From Chloroflexota bacterium (lineage in GTDB: Bacteria; Chloroflexota; UBA11872; VXNJ01), in assembly GCA_009840625.1 (NCBI GenBank), contig VXNJ01000002.1, forward strand, positions 1 to 64,000: 64,000 nucleotides of DNA. The letters are read 5' to 3'. This document shows, piece by piece, positions 2,041-56,462 of the stretch (the first letter of the stretch is position 1; the number at the start of each line of letters is the position of its first letter). The position numbers and the translations under genes were made by a program. Below the pieces are notes generated by a model. That model searched no databases. It saw only the letters and a list, made by a program, of their open reading frames with translations, and had not been told where the DNA came from.

Positions 2041-3183
2041 CTAAGAGACCAGGTGGGCCCGGAGCACGTCCTCGTCGAACTCGACGCCGAGTCCGGGACC
2101 GTCAGGTGGCGTGATGTAGCCGTTCTCCACGACCAGCGGTTCCTTGAAGATCTTGCGGTGCAGCGGCCCCACGTTGGCTTCCTGGATCAGGAAATTTGGT
2201 GAGCAGGTATCGATCTGAATCGCCGCCGCCGCGGCAACTGGCCCGCAGTACATGTGCGGGGCGATCATCGCGTAATGCGCCTCGGCCATGCCCGCGATCT
2301 TCTTGGCTTCGGTTATGCCGCCACACTGGCCGACGTCGAGCTGGATGATCTGGGCCGCCTGCTGCTCCAGCACGCGCGCGAATTCGTACTTGGTGACCAG
2401 GCGTTCGCCGGTCGCGATCGGAATGCTGGTGTGGGCGGCGATGCGGGCCATCTCCTCGACCTTTTCCGGCATCACCGGTTCCTCGAACCAGAACGGGTTG
2501 TAAGGCTCAAGATACTTGGCCACGCGGATCGCGCTGTAGGTCGGCATCTGCCCATGCGTCCCGATGGCGACCTCGAGCCGGTTGCCGACCGCGTTGCGGA
2601 TGCTCTCGAAGATCCTGCCCGCGTGCTCTATCTCTGAAAGCGAGATGTCGCGGATGGGGTGGAGCGGCATGAACGGGTCGATCTTGCAGGCAGTATTGCC
2701 CGCCTCCAGGAGCATTTCCGCGACTTCGCCGGCTTTTTCGGGTCGCTCTCGGATGCCTTCGCTGGGCATGTATGCATAGGCGCGCAGGCGTTCGTGGTAG
2801 CGGCCCCCCAGCAGGTTGTAGATCGGTTGATTGGCGGCCTTGCCGGCGATATCCCAGAGCGCCATGTCGATCGCGCTGATCACCGGCGTCGAATAGAGGC
2901 TGGGATGGCGCAGATCGTGGCGGGTTCCGTACATGCGGTCCCAGATCAGCTCGATGTTCAGAGGGTTCTCGCCGAGCACGAATTGGCCGACGAACTCCTC
3001 GATCAACCTGACCTGCGACTTCAGGTCGTCGGGATGGTTCGAATAGGCGCTGCCGGCGATCCTTTCGCCGATGCCGGAGATTCCCTCGTCGGTCTGTAGC
3101 TCGAGAAAGAGGAAGTACCTGCCGCCGATGTACGGCGGCTCCGCTTCGACGACCATCGTCTTTAGCCCGGTGACCTTCATCAT
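2041..3183 (-). CDS. Enolase-superfamily enzyme (mandelate racemase/muconate lactonizing type)
   Basis: A 380-residue member of the mandelate racemase/galactonate dehydratase branch of the enolase superfamily: an N-terminal capping domain (residues ~1-125) and a TIM barrel. The second-strand acid/base Lys is in ACKIDPF, metal ligands are visible as the Glu of FWFEEP and of TGERL, and the acid/base His lies in IAPHMYCGPV. The position that normally gives the first metal-ligand Asp (DxHG in galactonate dehydratases) reads GTHGQM here, i.e. Thr. From memory, a GTHGQ subgroup of sugar-acid dehydratases/cycloisomerases exists, so this may be subgroup-specific rather than inactivating. Substrate is probably a sugar acid but unproven. 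It starts with two tandem ATG codons 135 bases after the polyketide synthase stop on the same strand. Confidence 0.85.
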   Translation of the reverse strand: MMKVTGLKTMVVEAEPPYIGGRYFLFLELQTDEGISGIGERIAGSAYSNHPDDLKSQVRLIEEFVGQFVLGENPLNIELIWDRMYGTRHDLRHPSLYSTPVISAIDMALWDIAGKAANQPIYNLLGGRYHERLRAYAYMPSEGIRERPEKAGEVAEMLLEAGNTACKIDPFMPLHPIRDISLSEIEHAGRIFESIRNAVGNRLEVAIGTHGQMPTYSAIRVAKYLEPYNPFWFEEPVMPEKVEEMARIAAHTSIPIATGERLVTKYEFARVLEQQAAQIIQLDVGQCGGITEAKKIAGMAEAHYAMIAPHMYCGPVAAAAAIQIDTCSPNFLIQEANVGPLHRKIFKEPLVVENGYITPPDGPGLGVEFDEDVLRAHLVS

Positions 3184-3318: not shown

Positions 3319-6300
3319 TTAGCGGAACGAAACCCAGTGCCGGCGGCGCTGGAACGGGTACCCGGGAACCGAGGTGCGCCGCCTAGTCTCGCCGGCGAAC
3401 AGGCCGCGCAGGTCGAGATCGAAGCCGGCTTCATAGACGCCCGCCACGGCCGCCGCGAACCCGCGGTCGGCGACCGGTTCCCCCAGAGTCGCAATCACCT
3501 TAGGGCCGGCACGCTCGCCCGAGTCCGGCCAGGCCGCCGAAATCCGCTCTGCCAGCCCGGGCCCGGGGCCCAGTCCGATCACCGCATCGATGCCGAGTCC
3601 GGCGAGGGCCGCGGCGCATTCGGCGGCGGCAACCGGCGCCCGCAGCTGGCGGTTCCAGTAATCTGCGTCGAGCAGGGTTTCGGAATCGATTGCCCGGCCG
3701 CTGGCACCGCTGATCAGTGCCAGCGATGGCGGCGCGGATTCGATACCGGCAAGGATCGATTCGAACCCGGTGTCCGGTGCCAACCCGGCACCCGGGAAAA
3801 CCGCCATGAGTTCGCCGCGGGCGGCCGCGATGCGCAGTCCGTCTTCGAGGGTCAGCGCCCCCGCCGCCTGGGCGGCCGCCAGTTCGCCGGGACCCTGCCC
3901 CAGGACCGCGGTCGGCAATACGCCCACCCCGGACCACAGGGCCGTCAGCGCGCACCCAAGCGCATATGTCGCCGGCTGGGCCCAGGCGGGATCGTCGAGG
4001 CTGGCGGCGCCCTGGTCCGGGTCGAACATTGCCTCGAGCAGCGACGCGACGCGTTCGGAGCGAATCAATTCGTCGCAGCGTTCCAGCACCGCGCGGACGG
4101 CCGGCTCGGTCTCGAAAAGTTCCCGTCCCAGGGTTATGGCCTGGCTGCCCAGCGCGGGGTAGACGAAGGCAAACCTGCGCGGCGGATCGGGATCGGGCTC
4201 AACGTCGCCCACGGCGACCGCGCGCAACTGCGACCGCAGGGATTCGGCATCGTCGAACACCAAGCCTGCCCGGTGATCGAAGTGGCTCCGGCCCACCGCG
4301 GCCGTCCAGGCCATGTCAGCGAGCGCTGCGGCGTCCGCAGGGTCGGTTTTCGATCCGTCCTGCAGGTCCAGCCACTCCGCGTAACGTTCGGCCAGCCCGC
4401 GGAGCGCCGCGCCGGATTTCGCCGACAGCGACAGCAGTCGCAAGTTGCGCGGCGCGCACGCGCCGGACGCCGGCGCGCCGGCCCCAGCGGGCGGAACCTG
4501 CACCGCGGCGCCGACCGGCACCCGCACGCCGTCCAATTGGGTCGGCGGGCTCTGCGCCGATTCGTATCCGGTTACGACCACGTTGGCATTGGTGCCCGAC
4601 ATTCCGAACGCGCTCACCGCCGCCACCGGCGCCCGTCCGTTGCCGTCCGGCCAGGGGGTCGGACTCGCCGTCACCCGCACCGGCAAGCGGTTCCAGTCGA
4701 TGTTCTCACTGGGGTTTTCGAAATGAATCTGGCGCGGAATTGAACCCTGGCGCATCGCCAGCACCGTCTTTATCAGGCTGGCGATGCCGGCCGCCCATTC
4801 GAGATGGCCGATGTTGGCTTTCACTGATCCGAGCAGTAGCGGGCGGTCGTCGGGGCGGCCCCGCCCGTAGACGGCGGACGCCGCTTGGATCTCGATCGGA
4901 TCGCCCAGCGCCGATCCGGCCCCGTGCGCTTCCAGGTAGTCCACGTCCGCCGGGGCGAAGCCGGATTGTGCCAGCGCTTCCTCGAGCACCCGTTCCTGGG
5001 CCGGCCCGTTGGGGACCGTGAGGCCGGCGCTGGCCCCGTTCTGGTTGATCGCCGAACCCCGGATCACACCCCAGATCCGGTCGCCGGCGGCCTCGGCGTC
5101 GCTCAACCGCTTCAGCGCGATGATGCCGCACCCGTCGCTGCGCACGAACCCGTCGGCGGCGGAGTCGAACGTCGAGGAACGGCCGCTTTCCGAGATCATT
5201 CCCAGGTCGTCGAGGAACCGCGCCAGGCCCTGCGAGAGGGGAACGTTGACTCCGCCGGCGAGCGCCAGGTCCGCCTCGCCGCGCTGCAGCCCCGCGACCG
5301 CCTGGTGCACCGCCACCAGCGAGGATGCGCAGACCATGTCCAGCCCCATGGCCGGCCCCTCGAGCCCCAGCGCGAAGGCCACCCGGCCGACCGCCATGCT
5401 GCCGGCCGTGCCCACGAAGCTGTCTTCGGCACCGCCGGCGGCGATCACGTCCCGGTATTCGTTGCCGCCGACTCCGATGTAAACGCCGGTGCGGCTGCCC
5501 CGCAAACCCCCGGGGTCGATGCCGGCGTCCTCGAGCGCCAGCCAGGTCGTCTCCAGCAGCAGTCGCTGGCGCGGGTCCATGTGGCGCGCCTCGATCGGCG
5601 AAATCCGGAAGAAGCGCGAGTCGAAGCGGTCGATTCCTTCGATGAAGGCTCCGCGGCGAAAAATGGACTCGGTCGCGTTGGGGTCTCCGTAAAGCCCGTC
5701 CCACGGATAGGGGTCGGTACGTCCCTCGCTGACCAGATCGGCGCCGGCCTCGAGCTGCCGCCAGAAGCCGAGCGGATCCTCGGCGCCGGGAAACCGGCAG
5801 CCAATTCCCACGATCGCGATCCCGTCGCGGTCCGAATCGATCGTCCGCCGGATTTCCGGCTCGGGTTCGGGGGCGGGCTCGCCTTCGCCGTCTTGACCGC
5901 CGAGTTCTTCGGCCAGATGGCCGGCCAGGGCGGTGATGTCGGGGTAGTCGAACACCAGCGTGTTCGACGCGGTGTACTGGCCGGCGAAAGCCCGGTTCAG
6001 GCGGTTGCGCAGCTCCACCGCCATCAGCGAGTCCATTCCCAGATCGAAGAACCCCACGTCCGGCGCCGGCGGTGAAGCGAGGCGCAGCACCGCCTGGACC
6101 TCCTGCTGCAGGAATGTGGCCAGGATCGCATCGTTGCCGACCACCGGCGCGCCACGGAGCTGGGCGAGCAGGTCGGTCGGGGCCATCCCGGCTTCGCCCT
6201 CGGGCGCCTCGGCCTCGGCCAGGAGCTCCTCCAGAAACGCCGGACGGTCCTCGATTGCATCCTCGAACACCGCCCAGTCCATCGCCATTACCACTGAATT

Positions 6301-9300
6301 GGTCGCGTCCTCGCGCACCAGCCGCTCCAGCGCCCGAATCCCCTGCTGCGGCGTAAACCAACGGCCGCCAAGTGCCGCCCGGCGACGTTCGATCCGATCT
6401 TTCTGTTCGGCGGCTTCGCCGATTTCCGACCAGGCGCCCCAGGCGATTGACTGACCCGGGAGCCCCAGCGCGCGCCGGTGGCCGGCCAGCTGATCCAGGA
6501 AAGCGTTGGCGGCGGCGTGATTGCCCTGGCCCGGATTGCCCATCACCCCGACCCGGCTGGAGAACAGGACGAACAGGTCCAGGTCGAGGTGCTGGGTCGC
6601 CCGATGGAGGTGCCAGGCACCCGCGATCTTGGGGCGCAGAACCCGGTCGAAACTCTCCCAGGTCTGGTTGCCGATTGCCGCGTCGGACAGCACGCCGACA
6701 CTGTGGATCACGCCGCCGAGCGGCGGGTGATCCCGCTCGATGCGGGCCAGCATCGAATCGATTGCCGCCGGATCGGTCACGTCGGCCAGCTCGACGCCAA
6801 TGTCGATTCCCTTCGCCCGCAGTCCGTCGATGACCGTCTTGACTTGGGGATCCGGGTCGCGGCGCCCGTTGAGCACAATGGCCCCGGCGCCGCGGTCGGC
6901 GAGCCACTCGGCCACCGCGCAGCCGATCCCGCCCAGCCCGCCGGTGACCAGGTAGGTGCGGTCGGCTCGCAGCTGGCCGCGCGCCAGCGGCGGCAGGGTC
7001 AGGACGATTTTTCCGAGATGTCGGGCAGCCCGCATGAACCCCAACGCGGCGCCGGCCTCGGCCAGCGGCCAGCGGCTATGGATGATGGTCTCCAGTTCGC
7101 CGTTGGCGAACCGGCCCATGATCTGGGTTAGCACCTCGCCGACCCAGGCTGGATCGGTCTTTTTCAACACGTCGAGTTCCAGGATCGAGTAACCGACGTC
7201 GGGGCGAACCGCGGCCATTTCCGCCTCGCTGAGGATGTCGCGCCGCGCCAGCTCGACGAATCGGCCGCCTTCCATCAGGCAGCTGAGGCTGGCGTCGATG
7301 AACCCTTCGCTGGTCAGGCTGTTTAGCACCACGTGGACGCCGTGTCCGTCGGTGGCCTCGAGGATCTGCTCGCCGAAATCGGTCGTGCGGCTGTCGAATA
7401 CGTGCCGGACCCCGATCGACCGCAGGTAGCCCTGCTTGGGCGCGCTGGCGGTGGCGAACACTTCCGCTCCCGCCGCCCGGGCGAGGCTTATCGCGGCCAG
7501 GCCCACGCCGCCCGCACCGGCGTGGATCAGGACCCGCTCGCCCTCGGCGAGCCCCCCGGCCAGCTGATAGGAGAGTTCGGCCGAGACGTACGCGCTGGGA
7601 ATGGTGGCCAGCGCCGAACTGGAAGCCTCCGGCGGCGCCGCGGCGACCAGCAGTTCGTGCGTGTCCATTTCCGGACCGAACGCGCCGAACCCCAGTCCGA
7701 CCACCCGGTCGCCGACTTCGACCGCGGTCACCTCGGATCCGACCGCGATGACGTTGCCGCACATCTCCCGGCCCAGGTTGCCCTCTTCGATAAAGCCCAG
7801 CGAGCGGAAAACGTCCCAGAAGTTGATCCCGGCGGCGTCCACCGCAACCCGAACCTCGCGCGGTTCGAGGCCGCGCGTCGGGAGGGACATTACCTCGGGC
7901 CGGTCGAAGACCCCCGCCCGGTCCGGTGTCAGCACCCAGGACGAATCCTCGGGCAGCGCCAGCCGGCCGCCGCCGTCGCCGGAACGGACAAGTCGGGCCG
8001 CCAGGCGGCGGCCGGAACGGTGAACGATGTGGTTCTCGGTGTCGGGGTACAGGAATTCGTCGGCCAGGCCGGACTCGGCGTCGGCCACCGCCGGATCCAG
8101 GTCGAGCATGCGCGGCTGCAGATGGCCGGTTTCCAGGGCCAGAGCTTTGCCCAGACCCCAGAGCGTCGCGCCGGCGAGTTCGCCGCCGCGCTCGCGTTCG
8201 GTCACCTGTCCCCCGCGGGTGATGAACCAGAGCCCCTTCTGCGGCATCGCGTCGGAATCGGCCAGACCCTGGACCAGCGCCAGCGCAACCGCCACCGACC
8301 CCGAAACGTCGTCGAACATCTCGGCCGCCGAGGCCCCGGCGCCGTGTCCGTTAAGGGCGTGCAGGTGGATTACGCCGCTGAACGGGACGTTTTCGGGGAG
8401 CTGTGCAAACAACGTTCGCCAGGATTCCCGGTCGGTCCGGTCCACGGCGGCGCCGAAAACTCCCGCCGAGTCGCCGTTCGGCAGGGCTCCGGCGGTCGTG
8501 CCTTCATCGGCCACCAGAACCGTCTGGTTGCGTTCGGCTAGCTGCGACGCCAGCCCGGCGTGGTGGCCGGCGCCGGTCAGGACCCACAACCCGCGGGGTT
8601 CGCTGACCCGGGCCGGTCCCTGGGCGACTATCACCCCTTTGTCGAGCGGTTTGGTCTTGTCGGACTCGTCGACCCCGAGGACTTCGACGGCGGCAAATCC
8701 GGCGTCGCCGAGCGCGCGCCGCCATACCGGCGGTCCGGCCAGCGCGTGGTGCGGACGGTAGTCGTCGGCGAACCGCCACCATCCGTCCAGCTGGCCAAAC
8801 GTCAGGTCCATCCACCCCAGGCCGCGCAGGTTCTCGAGCGCGATCAACTGTCCCGACGGGGCCAGAAGCGCGGCGCAGTGCCCCAGGGTTTCGGTCAGGT
8901 AGCGCGTCGCGTGCAGAACGTTGGAGGCAATGATCAGGTCGTAGCCGTGCTGGTCAAATCCCTGCTCGATCGGATCCTTCTCGATATCGAGCGGGCGGTA
9001 CTGGATGGCGCCGCCGCCGTCGCCGAAGCGCGCTTCGGCCTCGGCGAAGAATCCGGCCGAGATATCGGTGTAGGTGTAGTCGTAACGTCCATCCGGCAGT
9101 TCGGGCAGGACCGACGCCGTGGCGGACCCGGTCCCGGCCCCGACCTCGATGACTCGCAGGCGACGGCGGTCCGGGAGCCTGTCCACCAGGGCGCGCACGG
9201 CCTCGGACAGCATCCGGTTGGCCGCCCGTGCGACCGGGGCCTTCAGATAGAGATCGGCGGCGGTCGGTTCGCCGCTGCTAAACAGCAGCGTGAGCGGGTC

Positions 9301-12300
9301 GGCGTCCCCACGCAGCACTTCGCCCAGCGCGGCGCCGGACCGCCGGAACAGTCCGACTTCGATCTGGCCGTGTTCATAGCGTTGCGCCATCGTGTCGGCG
9401 AACCCCGCCGGATCCCGGGGCAGTTCCTCGGGCAGCTGGTCGTCGGTCCCAATCCGGACGAGGAATCCGCCGTCTTTTTCCGTCAGGACGCCGGCCTGGG
9501 CGAGCATTTCGAACATCCTGCGGAACAGACGCTTGTGTTCCGGGGCGACATTGAGTTCGCGGCGCAGTTCCTCGACATCGACGGCCGTCCCCCGACTGCG
9601 CCGCCAGCCGAGTTTTTCCAGCGTCGCCAGCGCGTAGGAGCGCGACCACTGCTCGAGGTCCTCGAGCAAGTCGTCCCGATTGCCGGGGTCGACCCCGGCG
9701 TCCGTCAAGTAGTCGGCGAACAGCTCCGACCCGGCCGCGACCGCGGACGGTACGGGAAAGAAATCGGCGGGTATCAGGCCCGATGCGAGCGGACGCTCGC
9801 GCCAGGCGACCTCGTAGAGCAGGTCGCTCGCCCCTTCCACGGCCGAAAGCAGGGCCGCCCGGGTGGCGCGTTTGACCGCGTAACCGCTGAAACCGCCGAT
9901 CAGATCGCCGGCGTCGTCGAGGATCCGCAGCTCCCCGCTGAGCACCTCGGGTTGCCCATCGGCATTGGGTTCGCCCGCGCCCGGGGCCTCGTTCATGCGC
10001 ACGTGGCAGTAAATGCGGTCCGGCAGGGGCCCGTTTAACCAGAACCGTTCCCAGCCGAAGGGCAGGTAGGTCGGCTCATCGGGGCCGCCGTCCATGTTGC
10101 GGGCCAGGCCCACGACCTGAAAGCAGCCGTCGAGCATTAGCGGGTGGGCATCCAGTCCGCCGCGGCTGACGAATTCCGGCAGTTCGATCTGGGCCAGCGC
10201 CTCGCCCGGACCGGTCCAGATCTGGGTCAGGGTGCGGAACGAGGGACCAAGGTCAATCCCGGTGGCCGATTTGGCGCGGTAGTAGTCGGCTATGCCCGCC
10301 GGCGACATCCTGGATCTGAGGCCCGCAAAGTCCGCGGGACCGCCGTCTTCGGGGAGCGACCCGCCATGCAGGACGCGCCCTTCCACGTGCAACGTCCAGT
10401 CACCTTCGGGACCCTTGCTGAAGATCTGCAGCGACTTGGCCGGCGACTGCTCGGCGTCATCAAGCAGAAGCTGGATCCGGCGCCCTTCGGGGTCTGCGCC
10501 CGATTCGGCGGCCCGGGTCGGGAACACCAGCGCGTTGTGCAGCTGCACCTCTTCCAAAAAGACCTGATCGCCGCCCTCGGCCCGGGCCGCCGCGCAGGCC
10601 ATCGCGCAGTAGAGCGCGCCGGGTGCGATCACCCGGCCGAAGACCAGGTGGTCGGCCAGCCAGGCCGGTTCCGATTCGAATATCTCGGCCTCGAAGGAGA
10701 CGCCGCCGCGGGCCGATTCATGGCGATCCCCGAGCAGCGGGAGGCCCGCCGCGCCGCGCCGACGCCCGGCCTGCGGGATCCAGTGCCGCGAACGCTGGAA
10801 CGGATATCCGGGCAGCGAGATCCGCCGCGGCGCCTCTCCTTCGAAAAGGCCGGCGAACGAGATTTCAAGGCCCAGTTCGTAGGACCGCGCCACCGCATCG
10901 ACGAAGCCGCTCGCGGGTCCGGAATCGGATCCCCGGCGGCGCGGACGGCGCATGCTGGCCAGAACGGCCGGGGCCGGCGGCCCGTGTCCATCGGGCTCGG
11001 ACTCCGGCCAGGCGAGAGTCGTCATCGGGCCCAGCAGGGCGTGCGGCCCGATTTCGATCACCAGATCGACTCCGAGCTCGGCCATGGTTCTTACCCCGCC
11101 GGCGAACGCGACCGCCTGCCGCGCGTGTTCGCGCCAGTAGGCCCCGTCCAGGGATAGGTCGGGCCCGACCGCTTGTCCGGTCAGATTGCTTACGAAGGTG
11201 AGATCGGGGGGCCGGATCGCGACTTTGGCGAGCGAGGCTTCGAGCGCGTCCAGGGCGGGTTCGACCAGGGCGCTGTGGAATGCCCGGGTCGTGTTCAGCC
11301 GGGAAACTCTAATGCCCCGGGCACCGAACCGCGCAAGGATCGCGTCGATGTCTGCGGCGCGGCCGCTTACGACCTGATGGGCGCCGTTGTCGGCCGAAAC
11401 GTCCAGCACCGCGCCGGGCTCCACCGCCTTGTAGGCGCTTACTTCCGCGGCCACTTCCGGCGGCGGGGCAAAGACCGCGGCCATGTTCCCCGGGTCGGTT
11501 TCCGAGAGCAGCGTTCCGCGGGCGGCCGCGAAGCGCATGCCGTCCTCGAGGCTGAAAACGCCGGCCGCCCAGGCGGCCGCGATTTCGCCGACGCTGTGGC
11601 CCATCACGACGCCGGGCCGCACCCCCACGCTGTCCCAGAGAGCGGTCAGCGCGCATTCCAGGGCGTACAACGCCGGCTGCTCCCAGGCCGTGTCCCCGAG
11701 GTCGCCGGTCGATCCGTTGCGACCGAACATCACATCCAGCAGCGATTCCCCGCGGGCTTCCCGGAAGGCCTCTTCGCATCTGTCCAAGACCGCCCTGGCG
11801 ACTGGTTCGTGATCGTAGAGATCGCGGCCCATTCCGAGCCATTGGCTGCCCTGGCCGGTGAATGCGAAAGCGATTTTGGCGGGGACTCCGGCTGCCCTGC
11901 CCGCGCCCTCGATGACGTCCCGGAGGCCCGCGCGCAGAGATTCGGCGTCGCCGAATGTCACGCCCGCGCGGTGATCGAAATGTTGGCGTCCGGCACCCGC
12001 CGTCCACGCCATGTCGGTGAGCGCCTGTGCGGCGAGCCGATCGTCGGACCAGTCATCCGACTGCCCGGCGAGCCAGGTCAGGTAGCTGCCCGCCAGGTCC
12101 TTTAAAGCGCCCTCGGATTTGCCGGAAATGGGCAGGAAACGGCTCTGCCGGCGCGCGGTCGGTTCGTTTGCCGGGCCCGGGACGCCGTCCGGACCGCGGT
12201 ACTCCTCCACCAGCATGTGGGCGTTGGTGCCGGATATTCCGAAGGAGTTGACGGCGGCGAGGCGCGGCCGGCCGTCGCGTTGCGGCCAATCGATCATCGA

Positions 12301-13527
12301 ATCGGTGATCTGCAGCGGCACCCGGTCCCACTCGATGGCTGGATTGGGGTTCTCAAAGTGCAGGTGCCTGGGAATGATTCCCCGATTGACCGTGAGGACC
12401 GCCTTGATCAGACCGGCGACCCCGGCCGCCGACTCCAGGTGGCCGATGTTGGTCTTGACCGAACCAACCAGCAGCGGCCGGTCGCCGTCGCGCTCGCGGC
12501 AGTAGGCATTGGCGACGGCTTCGATTTCGATCGGGTCACCCACCGCCGTACCGGTGCCGTGGGCTTCAAGGTAGTCAACGTCGTTGGCCCCGGCACCGGC
12601 GTGCGAGAGTGCGGCCTCGATCACCTGCTCGAGCGCCGGAACGTGCGGGACCGTCAGGCCGGAACTGGCCCCGCCGTGATTGACGGCCGACCCGCGAATG
12701 ACCGCCCAGATCCGGTCGCCGTCGCGTACGGCTTCGCTCAACCGCTTCAGGACCACGACACCGCAGCCCTCGCCGCGCACGTAACCGTTGGCCGAGGCGT
12801 CGAACGCCTTGCACTGACCGTCCGGTGACAGCATCATCGAATCTGCCCGCAGTTCGTAAATGCGGCCGTTCAGGATTGCCTGGACTCCCCCGGCGATGGC
12901 CAGGTCAGCTTTGCTCTGCTGGAGGTCGGCTACCGCGTCGTGGACTGAGACCAGCGACGATGCGCAGGCCGCGTCGACCGCTTTTGCCGGCCCCATAAGG
13001 CCGAGCACGAAGGAGACCCGTCCGCTGGCGCCGTTGAGGTTGGTTCCGCTGAGGGCGTAAAGGCACCCCGCCGCTTCGGTCGGGCGAGACGAGTCGACGA
13101 CCAGCATGCGGTATTCGTCGTTGCTGATCCCGGCGTAGACGCCGGTGCGGCTCCCGCGCAGAGTTGCGGCGTCGATTCCGGCGTCTTCGAGAGCCAGCCA
13201 GCTCATTTCCAGCATCATGCGTTGCTGGGGATCGAGCAGTTCGGCTTCTACCGGGGAGATGCGGAAGAACTCCGCATCGAATTGATCTATGTCGTCTACG
13301 AACGCCCCGAAGCGACAGGCTTGGGCCCGCTCCGCGGTGTCTGGAAACAGCTCCGCCATGCGACCGCTGCCGGAGTTGGGGTCACCTTCCCGTACCGAGT
13401 TCTGACCGGATTCCAGCAGGTCCCAGAATGCCGGGATGTCTGGTGCACCCGGAAACCGGCAGGCCATCCCGATCACGGCGATGGGCTCACCGTGCTGCGC
13501 GGACTGGCTCTTGCGGGACACGTTCAA
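3319..13527 (-). CDS. Type I polyketide synthase KS-AT-DH-MT-ER-KR-ACP-KS-AT(degenerate)
   Basis: A 3402-residue multidomain synthase. KS1 (~14-445) has Cys188 in the DAACASS motif and the two His of EAHGTGT and NIGHLES. AT1 (~560-860) has Ser645 in GHSVGE and His751 in RAFHS, which predicts malonyl-CoA. DH (~925-1200) has His960 in HLVFGRVIAP and Asp1133 in LDGCFQ. The C-methyltransferase (~1295-1640) has the SAM motif EVGAGTGS near 1462. A structural KR-like segment precedes ER (~1865-2180, HAGAGGVG). KR (~2180-2370) has TGGLGGIG, but His2337 stands where the catalytic Tyr is expected. ACP (~2465-2540) carries Ser2500 in LGMDSL. KS2 (~2565-2990) keeps Cys2733 and both His. The terminal AT (~3120-3370) reads GQGPGE, so Gly3212 replaces the nucleophile, and it lacks about 70 residues including the AFHS region. 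The protein ends just after the post-AT linker; there is no second ACP, thioesterase or reductase. Start ATG directly precedes KS1. Confidence 0.95.
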   Translation of the reverse strand: MNVSRKSQSAQHGEPIAVIGMACRFPGAPDIPAFWDLLESGQNSVREGDPNSGSGRMAELFPDTAERAQACRFGAFVDDIDQFDAEFFRISPVEAELLDPQQRMMLEMSWLALEDAGIDAATLRGSRTGVYAGISNDEYRMLVVDSSRPTEAAGCLYALSGTNLNGASGRVSFVLGLMGPAKAVDAACASSLVSVHDAVADLQQSKADLAIAGGVQAILNGRIYELRADSMMLSPDGQCKAFDASANGYVRGEGCGVVVLKRLSEAVRDGDRIWAVIRGSAVNHGGASSGLTVPHVPALEQVIEAALSHAGAGANDVDYLEAHGTGTAVGDPIEIEAVANAYCRERDGDRPLLVGSVKTNIGHLESAAGVAGLIKAVLTVNRGIIPRHLHFENPNPAIEWDRVPLQITDSMIDWPQRDGRPRLAAVNSFGISGTNAHMLVEEYRGPDGVPGPANEPTARRQSRFLPISGKSEGALKDLAGSYLTWLAGQSDDWSDDRLAAQALTDMAWTAGAGRQHFDHRAGVTFGDAESLRAGLRDVIEGAGRAAGVPAKIAFAFTGQGSQWLGMGRDLYDHEPVARAVLDRCEEAFREARGESLLDVMFGRNGSTGDLGDTAWEQPALYALECALTALWDSVGVRPGVVMGHSVGEIAAAWAAGVFSLEDGMRFAAARGTLLSETDPGNMAAVFAPPPEVAAEVSAYKAVEPGAVLDVSADNGAHQVVSGRAADIDAILARFGARGIRVSRLNTTRAFHSALVEPALDALEASLAKVAIRPPDLTFVSNLTGQAVGPDLSLDGAYWREHARQAVAFAGGVRTMAELGVDLVIEIGPHALLGPMTTLAWPESEPDGHGPPAPAVLASMRRPRRRGSDSGPASGFVDAVARSYELGLEISFAGLFEGEAPRRISLPGYPFQRSRHWIPQAGRRRGAAGLPLLGDRHESARGGVSFEAEIFESEPAWLADHLVFGRVIAPGALYCAMACAAARAEGGDQVFLEEVQLHNALVFPTRAAESGADPEGRRIQLLLDDAEQSPAKSLQIFSKGPEGDWTLHVEGRVLHGGSLPEDGGPADFAGLRSRMSPAGIADYYRAKSATGIDLGPSFRTLTQIWTGPGEALAQIELPEFVSRGGLDAHPLMLDGCFQVVGLARNMDGGPDEPTYLPFGWERFWLNGPLPDRIYCHVRMNEAPGAGEPNADGQPEVLSGELRILDDAGDLIGGFSGYAVKRATRAALLSAVEGASDLLYEVAWRERPLASGLIPADFFPVPSAVAAGSELFADYLTDAGVDPGNRDDLLEDLEQWSRSYALATLEKLGWRRSRGTAVDVEELRRELNVAPEHKRLFRRMFEMLAQAGVLTEKDGGFLVRIGTDDQLPEELPRDPAGFADTMAQRYEHGQIEVGLFRRSGAALGEVLRGDADPLTLLFSSGEPTAADLYLKAPVARAANRMLSEAVRALVDRLPDRRRLRVIEVGAGTGSATASVLPELPDGRYDYTYTDISAGFFAEAEARFGDGGGAIQYRPLDIEKDPIEQGFDQHGYDLIIASNVLHATRYLTETLGHCAALLAPSGQLIALENLRGLGWMDLTFGQLDGWWRFADDYRPHHALAGPPVWRRALGDAGFAAVEVLGVDESDKTKPLDKGVIVAQGPARVSEPRGLWVLTGAGHHAGLASQLAERNQTVLVADEGTTAGALPNGDSAGVFGAAVDRTDRESWRTLFAQLPENVPFSGVIHLHALNGHGAGASAAEMFDDVSGSVAVALALVQGLADSDAMPQKGLWFITRGGQVTERERGGELAGATLWGLGKALALETGHLQPRMLDLDPAVADAESGLADEFLYPDTENHIVHRSGRRLAARLVRSGDGGGRLALPEDSSWVLTPDRAGVFDRPEVMSLPTRGLEPREVRVAVDAAGINFWDVFRSLGFIEEGNLGREMCGNVIAVGSEVTAVEVGDRVVGLGFGAFGPEMDTHELLVAAAPPEASSSALATIPSAYVSAELSYQLAGGLAEGERVLIHAGAGGVGLAAISLARAAGAEVFATASAPKQGYLRSIGVRHVFDSRTTDFGEQILEATDGHGVHVVLNSLTSEGFIDASLSCLMEGGRFVELARRDILSEAEMAAVRPDVGYSILELDVLKKTDPAWVGEVLTQIMGRFANGELETIIHSRWPLAEAGAALGFMRAARHLGKIVLTLPPLARGQLRADRTYLVTGGLGGIGCAVAEWLADRGAGAIVLNGRRDPDPQVKTVIDGLRAKGIDIGVELADVTDPAAIDSMLARIERDHPPLGGVIHSVGVLSDAAIGNQTWESFDRVLRPKIAGAWHLHRATQHLDLDLFVLFSSRVGVMGNPGQGNHAAANAFLDQLAGHRRALGLPGQSIAWGAWSEIGEAAEQKDRIERRRAALGGRWFTPQQGIRALERLVREDATNSVVMAMDWAVFEDAIEDRPAFLEELLAEAEAPEGEAGMAPTDLLAQLRGAPVVGNDAILATFLQQEVQAVLRLASPPAPDVGFFDLGMDSLMAVELRNRLNRAFAGQYTASNTLVFDYPDITALAGHLAEELGGQDGEGEPAPEPEPEIRRTIDSDRDGIAIVGIGCRFPGAEDPLGFWRQLEAGADLVSEGRTDPYPWDGLYGDPNATESIFRRGAFIEGIDRFDSRFFRISPIEARHMDPRQRLLLETTWLALEDAGIDPGGLRGSRTGVYIGVGGNEYRDVIAAGGAEDSFVGTAGSMAVGRVAFALGLEGPAMGLDMVCASSLVAVHQAVAGLQRGEADLALAGGVNVPLSQGLARFLDDLGMISESGRSSTFDSAADGFVRSDGCGIIALKRLSDAEAAGDRIWGVIRGSAINQNGASAGLTVPNGPAQERVLEEALAQSGFAPADVDYLEAHGAGSALGDPIEIQAASAVYGRGRPDDRPLLLGSVKANIGHLEWAAGIASLIKTVLAMRQGSIPRQIHFENPSENIDWNRLPVRVTASPTPWPDGNGRAPVAAVSAFGMSGTNANVVVTGYESAQSPPTQLDGVRVPVGAAVQVPPAGAGAPASGACAPRNLRLLSLSAKSGAALRGLAERYAEWLDLQDGSKTDPADAAALADMAWTAAVGRSHFDHRAGLVFDDAESLRSQLRAVAVGDVEPDPDPPRRFAFVYPALGSQAITLGRELFETEPAVRAVLERCDELIRSERVASLLEAMFDPDQGAASLDDPAWAQPATYALGCALTALWSGVGVLPTAVLGQGPGELAAAQAAGALTLEDGLRIAAARGELMAVFPGAGLAPDTGFESILAGIESAPPSLALISGASGRAIDSETLLDADYWNRQLRAPVAAAECAAALAGLGIDAVIGLGPGPGLAERISAAWPDSGERAGPKVIATLGEPVADRGFAAAVAGVYEAGFDLDLRGLFAGETRRRTSVPGYPFQRRRHWVSFR

Positions 13528-13935: not shown

Positions 13936-14181
13936 ATGCCATCGACCGCAGACCGTCTCCGGGAATTGATCAGCGAAAACATCGAAGTTGACGGCAAGCC
14001 GGTGGATGTGCCGGACGACATGAGTTTCTCTCTCACCGCCGCCGGGGTTTCCTCGCTCGACCTGGTCGCGTTCGGAAAACTGGTCAGTCAGGAATTCGGC
14101 GTTGCTTTCGAACTCAAGGACTGCACCGAGATCGACAGCCTCGGAAAACTCGTCGCGTTCATCGAAGACAAGGCCGCGTAG
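13936..14181 (+). CDS. Free-standing acyl carrier protein
   Basis: An 81-residue carrier-protein-like polypeptide, divergent from the polyketide synthase. The fold is suggested by an N-terminal helix (TADRLRELISENI), the loop DDMSFSLTAAG, the helix-II start VSSLDLVAFGKLV and the terminal DSLGKLVAFIED. In the phosphopantetheine site the usual Asp-Ser-Leu reads Ser-Ser-Leu: the modifiable Ser remains but the preceding Asp is replaced, which might alter recognition by phosphopantetheinyl transferases or partner enzymes. The ATG at 13936 is chosen because AAAGGA lies 8 bases upstream and the carrier homology begins immediately; a longer in-frame extension upstream has no such support. Its position suggests it supplies the carrier missing after the synthase's second KS, which is inference. 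Confidence 0.8.
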   Translation: MPSTADRLRELISENIEVDGKPVDVPDDMSFSLTAAGVSSLDLVAFGKLVSQEFGVAFELKDCTEIDSLGKLVAFIEDKAA

Positions 14182-46396: not shown

Positions 46397-46416
46397 ATGA
46401 CCGCGATTCCGGTCAT
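46397..46416 (-). terminator. Hairpin at the end of the DUF262 gene
   Basis: ATGACCG and CGGTCAT form a perfect seven-base stem with a six-base loop, overlapping the stop codon of the DUF262/DUF1524 gene. It lacks a following T-run on the minus strand, so it may be a weak terminator or simply an mRNA-stabilising hairpin. Confidence 0.3.
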
Positions 46417-48503
46417 TCTGCATCGGCCAGATTTAGCGCCTGTCTCACCAACCCGATCGCGGGGGCGATCCTTTCCTCGCGATCTAAGTCAAAAAGCACA
46501 CCACCCTCGTTTTGGCAATTGACGAGGAACTTGTATGTGTTCTTAGTCGCAAGGCCGGAGGGATCGTCGATTTCGTGGAATTCGGGCGCGAGAAGCAGCA
46601 GCAACCGCGTTTTGCGCGGGAGCACTTCGAACGCAAACGCAGGCCCGAAATAAGAGACTGATTTGCGCGCGGCCAATTCGATGATTTCGCGGTCGATTTC
46701 CTGCAATCGTTCCCTAAACCTCTGGAACAAATTGCGAACTAAGTCGGTCATTTCAACGCTGTCGGGATCGCTCGCCTTGGCCTTATTTCGTAACTCTTCA
46801 AATTCGATACGAGCAATCTGGTCTTCAGCAATTCCGTGATGGCACCAAATGCCCAGCGCCCTTGCGGCAAGCATTTTTCCGCGATTGCTCATTTGCTGCG
46901 CTGTCCATTTGTCCTGCTTACTAATGAATTTGTTCAATCGGACCGCGCTGTCTTCGAACCCGCCCGGAATCACCTTCTTTTCCTGGAATCCGCGATTCGA
47001 GTAGAGAGGGTTGTAAGCGGTGAGCGTCAAATTCCCTAGTCGGTGAAGCCAAGTTTGGTGAATTTCCTCCCATCTCTCGCCGAGCATCTGTTTCCAAGGC
47101 TCGGAAAGCACCTGGGGCATCACGTGCTCAATTTGAAAGCGGTCCGTGTCGACGCGTTCGAGATGGCCTGCGTTTTCGAGGCCTTCTAACAGGGGCCGAC
47201 AGACACGCGCGCCGTAAAGGTTGTCTTCAAAAAGTGCGCGTTCAAACTCCTCGTCACTCGGGAAGCGGTAACTTGCCTGACGGCGGGCCAAAAGCATCTC
47301 CAACGATTTCGAGGGGCAATCTTCGTCAAGGCCGTAAGCAATGTTGGCGAACACCGACCAGTAGCCACGCGTTTGAAGTCCGCATACTTGCCGTCGAACG
47401 ATGTAACTCTCAATTAAGCGAATCGACTCGGCGAATTCGGACTCGTTCAGTGTGCGGAGGTCGTGGTAACAGCGAAACAGCCTTGCAACAAGCATGGCGG
47501 GGACGTCTACGTGTCGCCGCAGTTCCCCGAGCGCCGCTCCGAGGTCTTTTCCGGGCCCACGCCGTAATACAAACGCCGCATAACCTTTGCTGAATTGCAA
47601 GAGATCGGCGAGAACCGCGTCCACGCTTTCGCCACCGGCCGTCAATCGCCTGTACTCTTCGCGGAACTCGACATAGATTCGGTCGGTCCGGATCTGCCTA
47701 GTCGCCTTTCGGCGCAATGCCACCCAATCGCGAGCGCAATTGTCGATTGCCCAATGCGAACCCTCGAACTCCGATTCGATCAGCCGCCAATACGAGCAAT
47801 AAATGCGGTTCTGCTCCTCTTCCGGCAATCCCATGAGGATGAAATTGCGAATAAGGTCAGCCTGACTCAAATCAACCCCAGTGGAGTTCAGGCTTTCGAA
47901 AACTAGCTGCGGGTTGTCGAGCGGTGGTTCGAGCATGACGTCGACAATCTTCAAATTGCCCAACCCCTTGTAGATTTCGGCGGGGTCGCTGCTAGCAATA
48001 ACTCCGCGGAATAGCTGGTAGGCGTCGTCGACCTCTGACGCGGGATCGTCAATAGATTCCTGGGATCCCTCGACGATCTTTCTTAGCGTCCGGTCGTCGT
48101 TTCTGCGTAGAACCAATCTGGGCTTTTGATCTCCAGTCTTGAACGCGTTCTGCAGAAACCGGCTGTCGATTTCTGCAGAAGTTGGGCCGCCCTCGCCAGC
48201 CCATCCTGAATCTTGGATGTGGTCCCGCAACGCTGCGAGCAACAGCGAAAGTGTGGTCAGTCTCTGCTGTCCATCAATTACCAACCAGCGCGAAAACGTT
48301 GCTTCTTGCGGGCCGGCGGCGGTATAGACGATCGATCCAAGAAAGTGGCCGCCATTAGCCGGCGCATCTGCGGCTTGCAACACGTCATTCCAAAGCTGCA
48401 CGCACTGCTCTTCGGTCCAGTTGTAGTTGCGCTGAAAAATGGGAACCACGAATTGCTTGCTTCCCTCAAGCAACTTCCAAAGGTCTTGGTGACTGGCCCT
48501 CAA
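46413..48503 (-). CDS. DUF262/DUF1524 protein, GmrSD-like type IV restriction nuclease
   Basis: A 696-residue protein combining an N-terminal DUF262 ParB-like NTPase domain (about 5-250, with PIFQRNYNWTEEQ and WLVIDGQQRLTTLSL), a DUF1524 HNH-type nuclease domain (about 440-560, with FQIEHVMPQVLSEPW and WLHRLGNLTLTAYN) and a C-terminal region resembling DUF5655 (EIDDPSGLA). This is the single-chain GmrSD/SspE-type layout, in which the NTPase controls a nuclease that cuts modified or otherwise marked phage DNA. Catalytic His and Asn positions look intact, so it is probably active. Base composition is visibly AT-richer than in all neighbours, suggesting recent acquisition. No partner methylase, phosphorothioation or other defence genes are adjacent. 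Confidence 0.9.
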   Translation of the reverse strand: MRASHQDLWKLLEGSKQFVVPIFQRNYNWTEEQCVQLWNDVLQAADAPANGGHFLGSIVYTAAGPQEATFSRWLVIDGQQRLTTLSLLLAALRDHIQDSGWAGEGGPTSAEIDSRFLQNAFKTGDQKPRLVLRRNDDRTLRKIVEGSQESIDDPASEVDDAYQLFRGVIASSDPAEIYKGLGNLKIVDVMLEPPLDNPQLVFESLNSTGVDLSQADLIRNFILMGLPEEEQNRIYCSYWRLIESEFEGSHWAIDNCARDWVALRRKATRQIRTDRIYVEFREEYRRLTAGGESVDAVLADLLQFSKGYAAFVLRRGPGKDLGAALGELRRHVDVPAMLVARLFRCYHDLRTLNESEFAESIRLIESYIVRRQVCGLQTRGYWSVFANIAYGLDEDCPSKSLEMLLARRQASYRFPSDEEFERALFEDNLYGARVCRPLLEGLENAGHLERVDTDRFQIEHVMPQVLSEPWKQMLGERWEEIHQTWLHRLGNLTLTAYNPLYSNRGFQEKKVIPGGFEDSAVRLNKFISKQDKWTAQQMSNRGKMLAARALGIWCHHGIAEDQIARIEFEELRNKAKASDPDSVEMTDLVRNLFQRFRERLQEIDREIIELAARKSVSYFGPAFAFEVLPRKTRLLLLLAPEFHEIDDPSGLATKNTYKFLVNCQNEGGVLFDLDREERIAPAIGLVRQALNLADAE

Positions 48504-53106: not shown

Positions 53107-53130
53107 GACTCCACAGTTACAAGTAAATAT

Positions 53131-53228
53131 CCGCAGGGGTGCTGGAAGCATCGGCTGAGAAGGCAGGCGCGATTCGAGCCTGCCTCCCCTAATGACCTGA
53201 TCCGGGTAATACCGGCGTAGGCAGACGG
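53131..53228 (+). ncRNA. TPP riboswitch (THI element)
   Basis: The conserved THI-box sequences are present: GGGGTGC, GGCTGAGA, then the variable P3 arm formed by AGGCAGGC and GCCTGCCT, ACCTGATC, CGGGTAATACCGGCGTAGG, and the closing P1 pair CCG/CGG. This RNA binds thiamin pyrophosphate and shuts off the downstream genes when the cofactor is plentiful. It precedes a thiamine-binding protein and an ABC transporter, so it represses uptake. A strong hairpin 16 bases downstream is the probable expression platform. Confidence 0.95.
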
Positions 53229-53244
53229 AACCGACCGAACTTTC

Positions 53245-53273
53245 ACACCGCATTGGCCTTGCCGATGCGGTGT
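53245..53273 (+). terminator. Riboswitch-linked intrinsic terminator hairpin
   Basis: ACACCGCAT (53245-53253) pairs with ATGCGGTGT (53265-53273), and the intervening bases T-GGC-CTT-GCC-G extend it to a 13-pair stem with one G-T pair and a CTT loop. The stem is followed by TTGCCTT. It lies just after the TPP aptamer and 73 bases before the first gene start, as a transcription terminator controlled by the riboswitch would. The T-run is short, so strength is uncertain. Confidence 0.6.
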
Positions 53274-53345
53274 TTGCCTTCCAAGGGCGGCGGCCTCCCC
53301 GGATTTGCGGCGAGCGGCGCCCGCCGGAAGGAAGGTCTTTGGCAA

Positions 53346-53633
53346 ATGGCAGCGATCATCGCGGCGTTCCAGGTACTCCCCAGCGGGGTCGAAGACGGTT
53401 ACGGATGCGTGGAAGCCGCAATCGCGGTCGTGCAGCAGTCCGGCCTGCCCTATGACGTCTCGTCATTCGAGACCACGGTCGAGGGTGAATACGACGAATT
53501 GATGGACCTGATCAAGCGCGCCCAGCAGGCCTGCTTCGACTTTGGTGCCAGTTCGGTGCTCTGCAACATAAAGGTGGCCAACACCCCCGCCGGCACCACC
53601 ATCGCCGATCACATCGGCAAGTTCCGCGATTGA
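53346..53633 (+). CDS. Thiamine-binding protein, MTH1187/YkoF family
   Basis: A 95-residue MTH1187/YkoF-like protein. The family pattern is clear: IIAAFQVLPSGVEDGYGCVEAAIAVV, then the YDVSSFETTVEGEYDELMDLIKRAQ stretch with the Glu that contacts the ligand in YkoF-type proteins, and CNIKVANTPAGTTIADHIGKF. Such proteins bind thiamine or its pyrimidine precursors, here as the first gene under the TPP riboswitch. ATG at 53346 is chosen rather than the upstream GTG frame because homologues start at this point and AAGG lies upstream. Its stop overlaps the permease start as TTGA. Confidence 0.9.
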   Translation: MAAIIAAFQVLPSGVEDGYGCVEAAIAVVQQSGLPYDVSSFETTVEGEYDELMDLIKRAQQACFDFGASSVLCNIKVANTPAGTTIADHIGKFRD

Positions 53634-54400
53634 CCGCCGCGGCGATCAAGTCCCGGATCCGGGCGGCCGCGCCGGCGGCCGGCCTGGTGGTTTTCATATT
53701 GGCCTTCTGGCAGTTTTTCGTGACCTGGCGCGAGGTGCCGCGCTGGCTGCTGCCCTCGCCGCTGGACATCGCCGCCGCGTTCGTCGACTCGGCCGATCTG
53801 ATGGGCTACCACATCCCGGTGACGCTGCTAGTCATGGCGGCCGGGTTTACGATCTCTCTCCTGCTGGGGACGACGGTGGCCACGGTCTGCCACCTGTTCG
53901 GGCCGGTGCGCAGGGCGGTCTATCCGCTGCTGGTTACGTCCCAGTCGGTTCCGTTCATCATCATCGCTCCGCTGCTGGTGATCTGGTTCGGCTTCGGCCT
54001 GGCTCCGAAACTGGTCCTGGTCACCCTGGTATGCGCCTTCCCGATCACGGTCACTTTCCTGGAAGGTCTGCGCTCGGCCGACCACGAGGCCCTCGACCTG
54101 CTGCGTTCGATGGGGGCGAGCCGGTGGGACCAGTTCCGCCTCGTCCAGCTCCCGCCCGCCCTGGCGGCGCTGGCCGCCGGCGCCAAGATCGCGGCCACCT
54201 ACGCGGTTATCGGGGCCCTGATCGCCGAATGGCTGGGCGCCAGCCGCGGACTGGGCGTTTTCCTGATCCGCTCGATGAATTCCTTCCGCGCCGACCGGGC
54301 CCTGGCCGCGATCGTGATCGTGATCTTGATCGCCCTCACCGCCTGGGCGACGATCGAACTTCTGACCCGCTGGGCGATGCCCTGGCGGGCCCACCTCTAA
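53630..54400 (+). CDS. thiX: ABC transporter permease for thiamin pyrimidine precursor (ThiX-like)
   Basis: A 256-residue permease with about six membrane helices and the EAA coupling loop HEALDLLRSMGASRWDQFRLVQLPPAL. It belongs to the SsuC/TauC/ThiX group. The TPP riboswitch, adjoining thiamine-binding protein and the downstream NMT1/THI5-like receptor identify it as the membrane part of a thiamin precursor (hydroxymethyl- or aminomethyl-pyrimidine) importer. The TTG start overlaps the preceding stop. The EAA loop is typical in length and composition, so it should couple normally to the ATPase encoded downstream. Confidence 0.87.
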   Translation: MTAAAIKSRIRAAAPAAGLVVFILAFWQFFVTWREVPRWLLPSPLDIAAAFVDSADLMGYHIPVTLLVMAAGFTISLLLGTTVATVCHLFGPVRRAVYPLLVTSQSVPFIIIAPLLVIWFGFGLAPKLVLVTLVCAFPITVTFLEGLRSADHEALDLLRSMGASRWDQFRLVQLPPALAALAAGAKIAATYAVIGALIAEWLGASRGLGVFLIRSMNSFRADRALAAIVIVILIALTAWATIELLTRWAMPWRAHL

Positions 54401-54463
54401 GCCGCAACCGTCCGGAGCCCTCCGGCAACACCCCCTGACTCCAACCCGAAGAGGAACCACACC

Positions 54464-55510
54464 ATGAACCGTCGCAATTTCCTGCGTCTGGCCCTGGCCG
54501 GCGGTGCCAGCCTGGTCCTGGCCGCGTGCGATATGAGCGGCCAGGAAACGGCCGTCTCGGAAGACATCGCCAATATCGCGGTCACCGCGCCCGAGGCCGC
54601 TCCGCGGCGCGCCGATCGCGCCGAGGCGACCCTGGTGCTGGACTGGGTGCCCAACACCAACCACACCGGCCTTTACGCCGCCCGCGCGCTGGGCTATTTC
54701 GAAGAGGAGAACCTCGATTTCAAGATCGAGGAGCCGGTCGAAGTCGACGCGACGTCGGTGGTGGCGGCCGGAAATGCCGAGTTCGGGATCGGGTTTCAGG
54801 AGTTCCTGACCCCGGCCCTGGTCCAGGGCGCCCCGGTCGTTTCGGTGGCGGCCATCATCCAGGAGAACACCTCCGGCTTCGCATCGCTCAAGAGCCGCGG
54901 GATTTCGCGTCCGCGCGACTTCGAGGGTGCCGTCTACGGCGGGTTCGGCTCCCCGCTTGAACTGGCGATCCTGCAGGTGATGATGGAGCAGGACGGCGGC
55001 GATTTCTCCAAACTCGAGTCGGTTGGCGCCGGCGCGGCCGATTTCCTGACCATCATCCAGCGCGACGTGGACCTTTACTGGATCTTCTACGCCTGGCAGG
55101 GGGTGAAGGCCGACCTGGAGGGGATCGAACTGGACGTGGCTTTCCTCTCCGATTGGGGTGTTCCCAACTACTACACCCCGCTGATCATGGCCAACTCCGG
55201 CATGCTCGGACGACGCCGCGAAATCGGCGAGCGGGCGATGGCGGCCATATCGCGGGGATACGATTTCGCCATCGCCAACCCGGCCGAAGCGGCCGAAATG
55301 CTGATCCAGGCCTCACCCGAGATCGACGTGCCGCTGGCGCACGCTTCGCAGCTCTGGCTCTCCCCGCGTTACCAGGGCGACGCCGACCGCTGGGGCCGCC
55401 AGCAGGGGTCGGTCTGGGGCGGCATGACGCAATGGATGCTGGACCGCGAATTGATCGAGGAGATGTTCGAGTGGGAGAACGCTTTCTCCAATGAGCTCCT
55501 GCCTGAATAA
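54464..55510 (+). CDS. thiY: Thiamin pyrimidine precursor-binding lipoprotein, NMT1/THI5-like (ThiY)
   Basis: A 348-residue lipoprotein. The signal peptide has twin Arg near the N-terminus (RRNFL) and a lipobox LVLAAC (Cys22), so export may be by Sec or Tat. The binding domain starts with VLDWVPNTNHTGLYAARALGYF, the NMT1/THI5 signature for ThiY proteins that bind N-formyl-aminomethylpyrimidine, and contains GNAEFGIGFQEFL and YWIFYAWQGVKAD. It delivers the precursor to the ThiX permease. Its start has AGAGGAA upstream. Sixty-three bases separate it from thiX. Confidence 0.9.
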   Translation: MNRRNFLRLALAGGASLVLAACDMSGQETAVSEDIANIAVTAPEAAPRRADRAEATLVLDWVPNTNHTGLYAARALGYFEEENLDFKIEEPVEVDATSVVAAGNAEFGIGFQEFLTPALVQGAPVVSVAAIIQENTSGFASLKSRGISRPRDFEGAVYGGFGSPLELAILQVMMEQDGGDFSKLESVGAGAADFLTIIQRDVDLYWIFYAWQGVKADLEGIELDVAFLSDWGVPNYYTPLIMANSGMLGRRREIGERAMAAISRGYDFAIANPAEAAEMLIQASPEIDVPLAHASQLWLSPRYQGDADRWGRQQGSVWGGMTQWMLDRELIEEMFEWENAFSNELLPE

Positions 55511-55523
55511 GCGCGTCTAGGCC

Positions 55524-56297
55524 GTGGCCGGCCGGCTGGTCCTGGAAGGGATCGAGAAGAGTTTCGGCAGCGGTGCCGAACGGCTGCGGGTGCTGGACCG
55601 GACCAGCCTGGTGGTCGAGCAGAGCCAATTCCTTTGCTTGGTCGGCCCCAGCGGCTGCGGCAAGAGCACCCTCTTTAACGTGGCGGTGGGTCTGACCGCG
55701 CCCGACTCCGGCCGGATACTGCTCGACGGCTCGGACATAACCGGCCGCCGCGGCCTGCTCGGTTACATGCCGCAACGCGACCTGCTGCTTCCGTGGCGGC
55801 GCGTCATGGAGAACATCGTCATCGGCGTGCAGGTGCGGCGCGGTGACCTGGCGGCGGCCCGCCGGCGCGCCCGCGACCTGGCCCCGCTGTTCGGATTGGA
55901 GGGGTTTCTCAATCACCACCCCCACCAGCTCTCCGGCGGGATGCGCCAGCGGGCGGCGCTGCTGCGCACCATCGTGAGCGGAAACCAGGTCCTGCTGCTC
56001 GACGAGCCCTTCGGGGCCCTCGACGCCCTTACCCGGTTGGACATGCACCGCTTCCTGCTCGGCGTGCGGGCCGAGCTGGACCTGACCGTGCTTTTCGTCA
56101 CCCATGATCCGGACGAGGCGGTTGCCCTGGCCGACAAGGTCGCGGTCATGTCGGCCCGGCCCGGCCGGATCGTCGACCAGTTCGCGGTCGAACTGGCGTT
56201 CCCGCGCCGGGGCGATCGAGCCGCCGCCGCGCTGGCCGGCTACCGCGCCCGCCTGCTGGCGGCGCTGGGATCGGGCCTGTCGTCCGAGAGCAATTGA
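55524..56297 (+). CDS. thiZ: ABC transporter ATP-binding protein for thiamin precursor (ThiZ-like)
   Basis: A 257-residue ABC ATPase of the nitrate/sulfonate/ThiZ group. Walker A GPSGCGKST, Q-loop GYMPQRDLLLPW, signature LSGGMRQRAAL and Walker B VLLLDEPFGALDA are intact, with switch His in FVTHDPDEAV. Start is GTG at 55524, thirteen bases after thiY. It supplies energy for pyrimidine precursor import and completes the ThiXYZ set. Confidence 0.9.
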   Translation: MAGRLVLEGIEKSFGSGAERLRVLDRTSLVVEQSQFLCLVGPSGCGKSTLFNVAVGLTAPDSGRILLDGSDITGRRGLLGYMPQRDLLLPWRRVMENIVIGVQVRRGDLAAARRRARDLAPLFGLEGFLNHHPHQLSGGMRQRAALLRTIVSGNQVLLLDEPFGALDALTRLDMHRFLLGVRAELDLTVLFVTHDPDEAVALADKVAVMSARPGRIVDQFAVELAFPRRGDRAAAALAGYRARLLAALGSGLSSESN

Positions 56298-56462
56298 GCC
56301 GGCCGCACCGCCGTCCAGCCCTAGGCTTAGATTGGACACCAGACTGCGCCACGTAGCCGGATCCCGCATCTGAAGCAAAGCCCGACGCGGCCCGCGAGCG
56401 CCCCCGGACCAGCGGCGCCGGCCTACCGCATTCCCTGGACGATCGTTATCGCCGGGGCGGCG

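Follow-up and report, generated by a model that had tools for sequence, protein, structure and literature searches.

The 64,000-nucleotide stretch of Chloroflexota DNA analyzed here (the window) encodes a type I polyketide synthase (PKS) that ends in an apparently intact second ketosynthase (KS2) and a dead acyltransferase (psiAT). Our results indicate that KS2-psiAT probably works with a separately encoded acyl carrier protein (ACP) as a split terminal station, which would be charged in trans and from which an alpha/beta hydrolase would release the chain.

The PKS gene and its terminal domains

The PKS is encoded by a minus-strand open reading frame at 3319..13527 (3402 residues, TTG start), which is a real gene. 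Pfam returned the domain order KS-AT-DH-MT-ER-KR-ACP-KS-AT, the same as that proposed in an earlier note made from the letters alone, and, as that note had also claimed, detected no ACP, thioesterase, reductase or condensation domain past KS2, residues 2990-3402 being free of ACP and thioesterase. NCBIfam assigned the general type I PKS model and nothing more specific. The first KS (KS1, 12223..13488, by Pfam and motifs) has intact DAACASS, HGTGT and NIGHLE motifs, and the adjoining AT1 (11032..11868) has intact GHSVGE and RAFHS motifs, which by the established motif rule are of the malonyl type. The DH domain (9850..10740) keeps its catalytic His and Asp motifs, the C-methyltransferase (MT, 8668..9660) carries the SAM motif VIEVGAGTGS, the enoylreductase (6988..7950) carries HAGAGGVG, the ketoreductase (KR, 6424..6957) has His at the catalytic Tyr position, and the in cis carrier ACP1 (5914..6111) carries GMDSL; a DPQQR motif is also present in the protein. 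Because the AT1 motifs are of the malonyl type, any branching of the chain would come from the MT domain. Beyond ACP1 lie KS2 (4573..5862), the pseudo-AT (3538..4176) and a conserved post-AT linker (3322..3405) that ends in YPFQRRRHW, after which the C terminus is reached; like the domains before them, all three are on the minus strand.

A separate observation concerns the KR domain, in which the catalytic Tyr position is occupied by His (GQGNHAAAN) in 101/101 KR domains of the PKS family. Despite this substitution, KR is the most constrained domain of the PKS (median dN/dS 0.088). Tyr is found at this position in mycocerosic acid synthase (MAS), in AmphB and in two plasmid-borne PKSs with a readable motif.

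The description of KS2 in the earlier note as intact was borne out by alignment, with Cys2733 (5329-5331), His2868 (4924-4926) and His2908 (4804-4806) all present. Across the family, the catalytic residues are retained in 118/118 (Cys), 115/117 (first His), 116/116 (second His) and 116/116 (Lys) sequences, counts that come from about 115 aligned rows, roughly a dozen of them KS1 fragments. The HGTGT motif of KS2 is relaxed to HGAGS, HGGAS or HGPGT. KS2 is under purifying selection: its median dN/dS is 0.13, compared with 0.10 for KS1, 0.16 for AT1 and 0.26 for psiAT, the last being the weakest constraint on any domain of the PKS.

The same note had described a KS-AT end, and both domains are indeed there, but the second AT, judged from its alignment with AT1, is a pseudo-AT that cannot function as an acyltransferase. 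GQGPGE stands in place of GHSVGE, so that the nucleophilic Ser is replaced by Gly3212 (3892-3894), and ∼60 residues including the catalytic His of the AFHS motif are gone, with the same gap seen against CurL. The nucleophile is missing in all aligned loci except one (L080), and the His segment is missing in all of them, L080 included. In another locus (L123, 9848-19414), psiAT has been lost altogether, whereas KS2, the post-AT linker and a final YPFQRRRFW are kept and an ACP gene lies 75 nt downstream of the PKS; AT activity at this position is therefore dispensable. An AF2 model of KS2-psiAT built from 49 relatives (pLDDT 78, pTM 0.82; an initial model from 18 sequences was poor, with pLDDT 50, and was set aside) resembles KS-AT didomains, CurL (4mz0) being the best structural match and CalA3 (7wvz, 8i4y) also among the matches.

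The PKS was found in 79 named loci from ten phyla in one scan of species genomes, and the C-terminal architecture is common to all of them where the contig allows, although in some family members the coding sequence is divided between two frames. The KS2 sequences fall into a single clade (SH-aLRT 100, quick method), and thus a single origin of the two-KS design is probable. On the KS2 tree, the phyla are interspersed (22 changes, with 9 as the minimum), a pattern consistent with exchange between symbionts, although part of it could stem from binning error. Among Chloroflexota loci, comparison of L031-L036 with L022-L030 revealed two types of KS1-AT1 motifs, DTACSSS/GHSLGE and DAACASS/GHSVGE, while KS2 stays related; this pattern suggests that the front cassette KS1-AT1 may have been swapped by recombination.

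We also considered whether the PKS is a fragment of a longer assembly line, one of the findings that the earlier note had named as fatal to its reading. This was excluded because KS1 and KS2 are the only type I KS domains in the genome (2.27 Mb, 96.6% complete), the other matches being a FabF-like enzyme and a single partial, weak one, and because in about 80 relatives the architecture stops at the same point. The ATs of this genome are AT1, FabD and the pseudo-AT.

The discrete ACP and other partner genes

A gene for a discrete ACP of 81 residues, with a GVSSLD phosphopantetheine site and an AGGA ribosome-binding site, lies on the plus strand at 13936-14181, 408 nt upstream of the PKS gene and in divergent orientation to it; its product is the likely partner of KS2 in trans. 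The phosphopantetheine Ser is invariant in this ACP family (94/94). An ACP homologue stands beside the PKS in 68/79 named loci, usually within a few hundred bases downstream of the KS2-psiAT end and on the same strand, and eight of nine loci checked that have no ACP nearby have one elsewhere in the genome. Further, the PKS is carried by 26 of 61 related Chloroflexota genomes, and both the discrete ACP and the alpha/beta hydrolase are found in those same 26 and in 0/35 of the others; for sets of this size a match by chance has a probability of ∼1e-17, a figure that overstates the significance because related genomes, and with them these co-occurrence counts, are not phylogenetically independent. 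The partnership between the PKS and the discrete ACP is well supported. Of the two fates envisaged for KS2 in the earlier note, handover of the chain to a separately encoded carrier is thus the better supported, given a dedicated ACP next to the PKS and co-occurrence without exception in 61 genomes.

Next we compared the divergence of the discrete ACP with that of its putative partners. ACP distances follow those of the hydrolase most closely (r 0.66), then those of DH, MT and KR (0.54-0.59), KS2 (0.46) and KS1 (0.35), and in this mirror-tree test the correlation with KS2 exceeded that with KS1 in 99.6% of subsamples. At the level of sequence divergence, the result lends mild support to a pairing of KS2 with the discrete ACP, and the overall pattern fits a route in which the chain would travel from ACP1 to KS2, on to the discrete ACP and then to the hydrolase.

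In many loci, the cluster consists of the PKS, the ACP, an Sfp-type phosphopantetheinyl transferase (PPTase) and the alpha/beta hydrolase, followed by a convergent xanthine/uracil-type permease, an order common to several phyla; in many loci a Xan_ur permease adjoins the PKS. In the genome from which the window derives, all five partners are present but scattered over three sites. There, a second ACP copy (62% identical) and the hydrolase (59% identical to a family member) lie together on contig C10, and the Xan_ur permease (C1:225836-227626), which has 62% identity to a family member, adjoins the PPTase. In the hydrolase, Ser117, Asp250 and His279 are invariant (63 sequences), and its solved relatives are distant ones only, such as monoglyceride lipase. 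The same small genome also holds an additional hydrolase paralogue that is more distant (42%), at C1:42305-43195, and six genes of the permease family, with matches on contigs C10, C1, C11, C6 and C2.

A putative split terminal station and competing explanations

We propose that the module KS1-AT1-DH-MT-ER-KR-ACP1 would act iteratively to give a saturated, methyl-branched chain, which, when finished, would pass from ACP1 to KS2 working with the discrete ACP. Because psiAT is dead, the discrete ACP would have to be charged in trans, either by AT1 or by FabD, and psiAT would serve as a scaffold at most. KS2 may then extend the chain by a final unit, yielding a beta-keto acyl-ACP, or may simply pass the chain across; the alpha/beta hydrolase would cleave the product off the discrete ACP, and the carriers would be activated by the Sfp-type PPTase. 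We infer in this scheme direct contact between KS2 and the ACP, loading in trans, condensation rather than transfer, the hydrolase as the release enzyme, and the nature of the product. More tentatively, and with some doubt, we suggest that a cis-AT lineage of iterative lipid synthases could have evolved once a terminal trans-acting station (an intact KS2, a dead or lost AT, a dedicated ACP and a hydrolase for release), in convergence with the AT-less modules of trans-AT systems, and that this station could have been exchanged between sponge symbionts of about ten phyla; the product would then be a methyl-branched beta-keto acid, a ketone or a transferred acyl lipid, and not a plain fatty acid.

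Several observations speak against the split station. The HGTGT motif of KS2 is relaxed, and in the genome studied here the ACP and hydrolase genes lie outside the PKS operon and there are two ACP copies. Moreover, since the divergence of the ACP is closer to that of DH, MT and KR than to that of KS2, the discrete ACP could prime KS1 or serve the hydrolase only. In the corresponding rival explanation, the discrete ACP brings a starter to KS1, or supports the hydrolase and PPTase during a distinct acyl transfer, and KS2-psiAT is left with a gatekeeping, editing or similar function. The ACP distances, which follow the hydrolase, DH, MT and KR at least as well as KS2, and the ACP copy that adjoins the hydrolase away from the PKS are consistent with this, yet we regard it as improbable: the ACP gene is found mostly close to the end of KS2-psiAT and on its strand, the ACP is tracked better by KS2 than by KS1, and delivery of a starter would leave KS2 without any carrier.

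The main competitor, a serious though still unlikely one, is provided by CalA3 of calcimycin biosynthesis, a chain-release PKS module without an ACP in which the Cys-His-His triad of the KS is intact and the AT Ser is Gly (PMC10006239). By analogy, KS2 would take the chain off ACP1 and hand it straight to water or a small nucleophile, which would give an acid, ester or amide; psiAT would form a structural lid, and the discrete ACP would be reserved for another step. The recovery of CalA3 structures as matches of the KS2-psiAT model and the absence of a cis carrier after KS2 are in keeping with such a role, and the other option of the earlier note, a KS for release or ester formation, thereby gains a real precedent with the same Ser-to-Gly dead AT, although the carrier option is better supported. 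However, a self-sufficient releasing KS would need neither an ACP nor a hydrolase, both of which accompany the PKS without exception in the 61 genomes, and psiAT is absent from L123, whereas the accessory domains of CalA3 are reported to be most likely required for function. Very improbable, finally, is that KS2-psiAT is a relic, now decaying, of a second module that has been lost. The second AT is truncated and under weaker constraint than any other domain, as such a relic might be, but the catalytic residues of KS2 are kept, KS2 is constrained across ten phyla, and the PKS frame has the same end in about 80 loci; a decayed tail was excluded on the same conservation of KS2.

The conserved set of PKS, discrete ACP, PPTase and hydrolase is the minimum for coexpression, and a PKS gene expressed alone would miss the ACP and hydrolase that are its constant companions in the genomes tested. 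A station with a dead AT and a trans ACP separates condensation, transfer and CalA3-like release as directly testable options.

Relation to known synthases

The earlier note had named the Sup and Swf synthases of sponge symbionts; likeness to Sup is supported indirectly, whereas Swf is excluded. The Sup PKSs, proposed makers of branched fatty acids, dominate KS surveys of sponges, and as late as 2014 the organisms that carry them were described as unresolved (PMC4245539); they are abundant in sponge-type symbionts, with SUP clusters in Chloroflexota, Proteobacteria and Acidobacteriota (PMC9426513), and the cluster of the sup clone pAPKS18 includes the permease SupE (PMC3908369). The window PKS has one complete reducing type I module. 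Its family, like Sup, is spread over several phyla (here ten, including Chloroflexota), in agreement with PMC9426513, and it has a permease partner like SupE, matched by gene type and not by sequence. In contrast, its own-genome partner genes are scattered. Most likely, the PKS family is the sponge Sup PKS, a likening made by the SupE-type permease and the taxa and not by the SupA sequence. The metagenome-assembled genomes of its relatives are presumably of sponge origin, judging from bin names and from background on demosponge symbiont genomes (PMC8163846); the window itself is assigned to Chloroflexota through its relatives at the order level. Our literature search found no reported product of a Sup-type PKS.

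SwfA, a synthase of sponge symbionts, shares with the window PKS a single reducing module. However, its order is KS-AT-DH-ER-KR-ACP, without MT or a second KS, DPQQ is absent, it has HATGT, and swfA is followed by genes for a reductase-sulphotransferase and a radical SAM protein (PMC3908369). Membership in Swf was therefore excluded, as the window PKS has MT, a second KS, HGTGT and DPQQR.

MAS, the best solved-structure relative of the window KR, is likewise an iterative, fully reducing module that leads to methyl-branched lipids, but MAS is not known to carry an MT domain or a terminal KS, and its branching comes from methylmalonyl. With CalA3, which releases its chain as an amide or acid without an ACP (PMC10006239), the window PKS shares a terminal Cys-His-His KS, an AT dead by Ser-to-Gly replacement and the lack of a cis ACP. 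It differs in the deletion of the catalytic-His segment and in the co-occurring discrete ACP and hydrolase, whereas in CalA3 the ferredoxin-like subdomain, DH and psiKR are retained and a C-N bond is formed. Split and AT-less modules of trans-AT systems resemble the window PKS in having a KS apart from its carrier, loading in trans, as proposed here, and only remnant linkers, and a stand-alone carrier gene linked to the KS, which marks split modules, is present here too. Unlike them, the window lineage is cis-AT, with intact KS1-AT1 motifs, and the best matches of KS2-psiAT are cis-AT KS-AT didomains.

Other genes of the window were noted in passing. A mandelate racemase/enolase-superfamily gene (2041-3183, minus strand) lies directly downstream of the PKS and outside the conserved cluster, and a GmrSD-type (type IV) restriction endonuclease is encoded at 46413-48503 on the minus strand. 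At 53125-57620, a TPP riboswitch is followed by genes for a thiamine-binding-type protein, an ABC permease, an NMT1/THI5-like protein, an ABC ATPase and an MFS protein, which together form a probable operon for uptake of a thiamine precursor.
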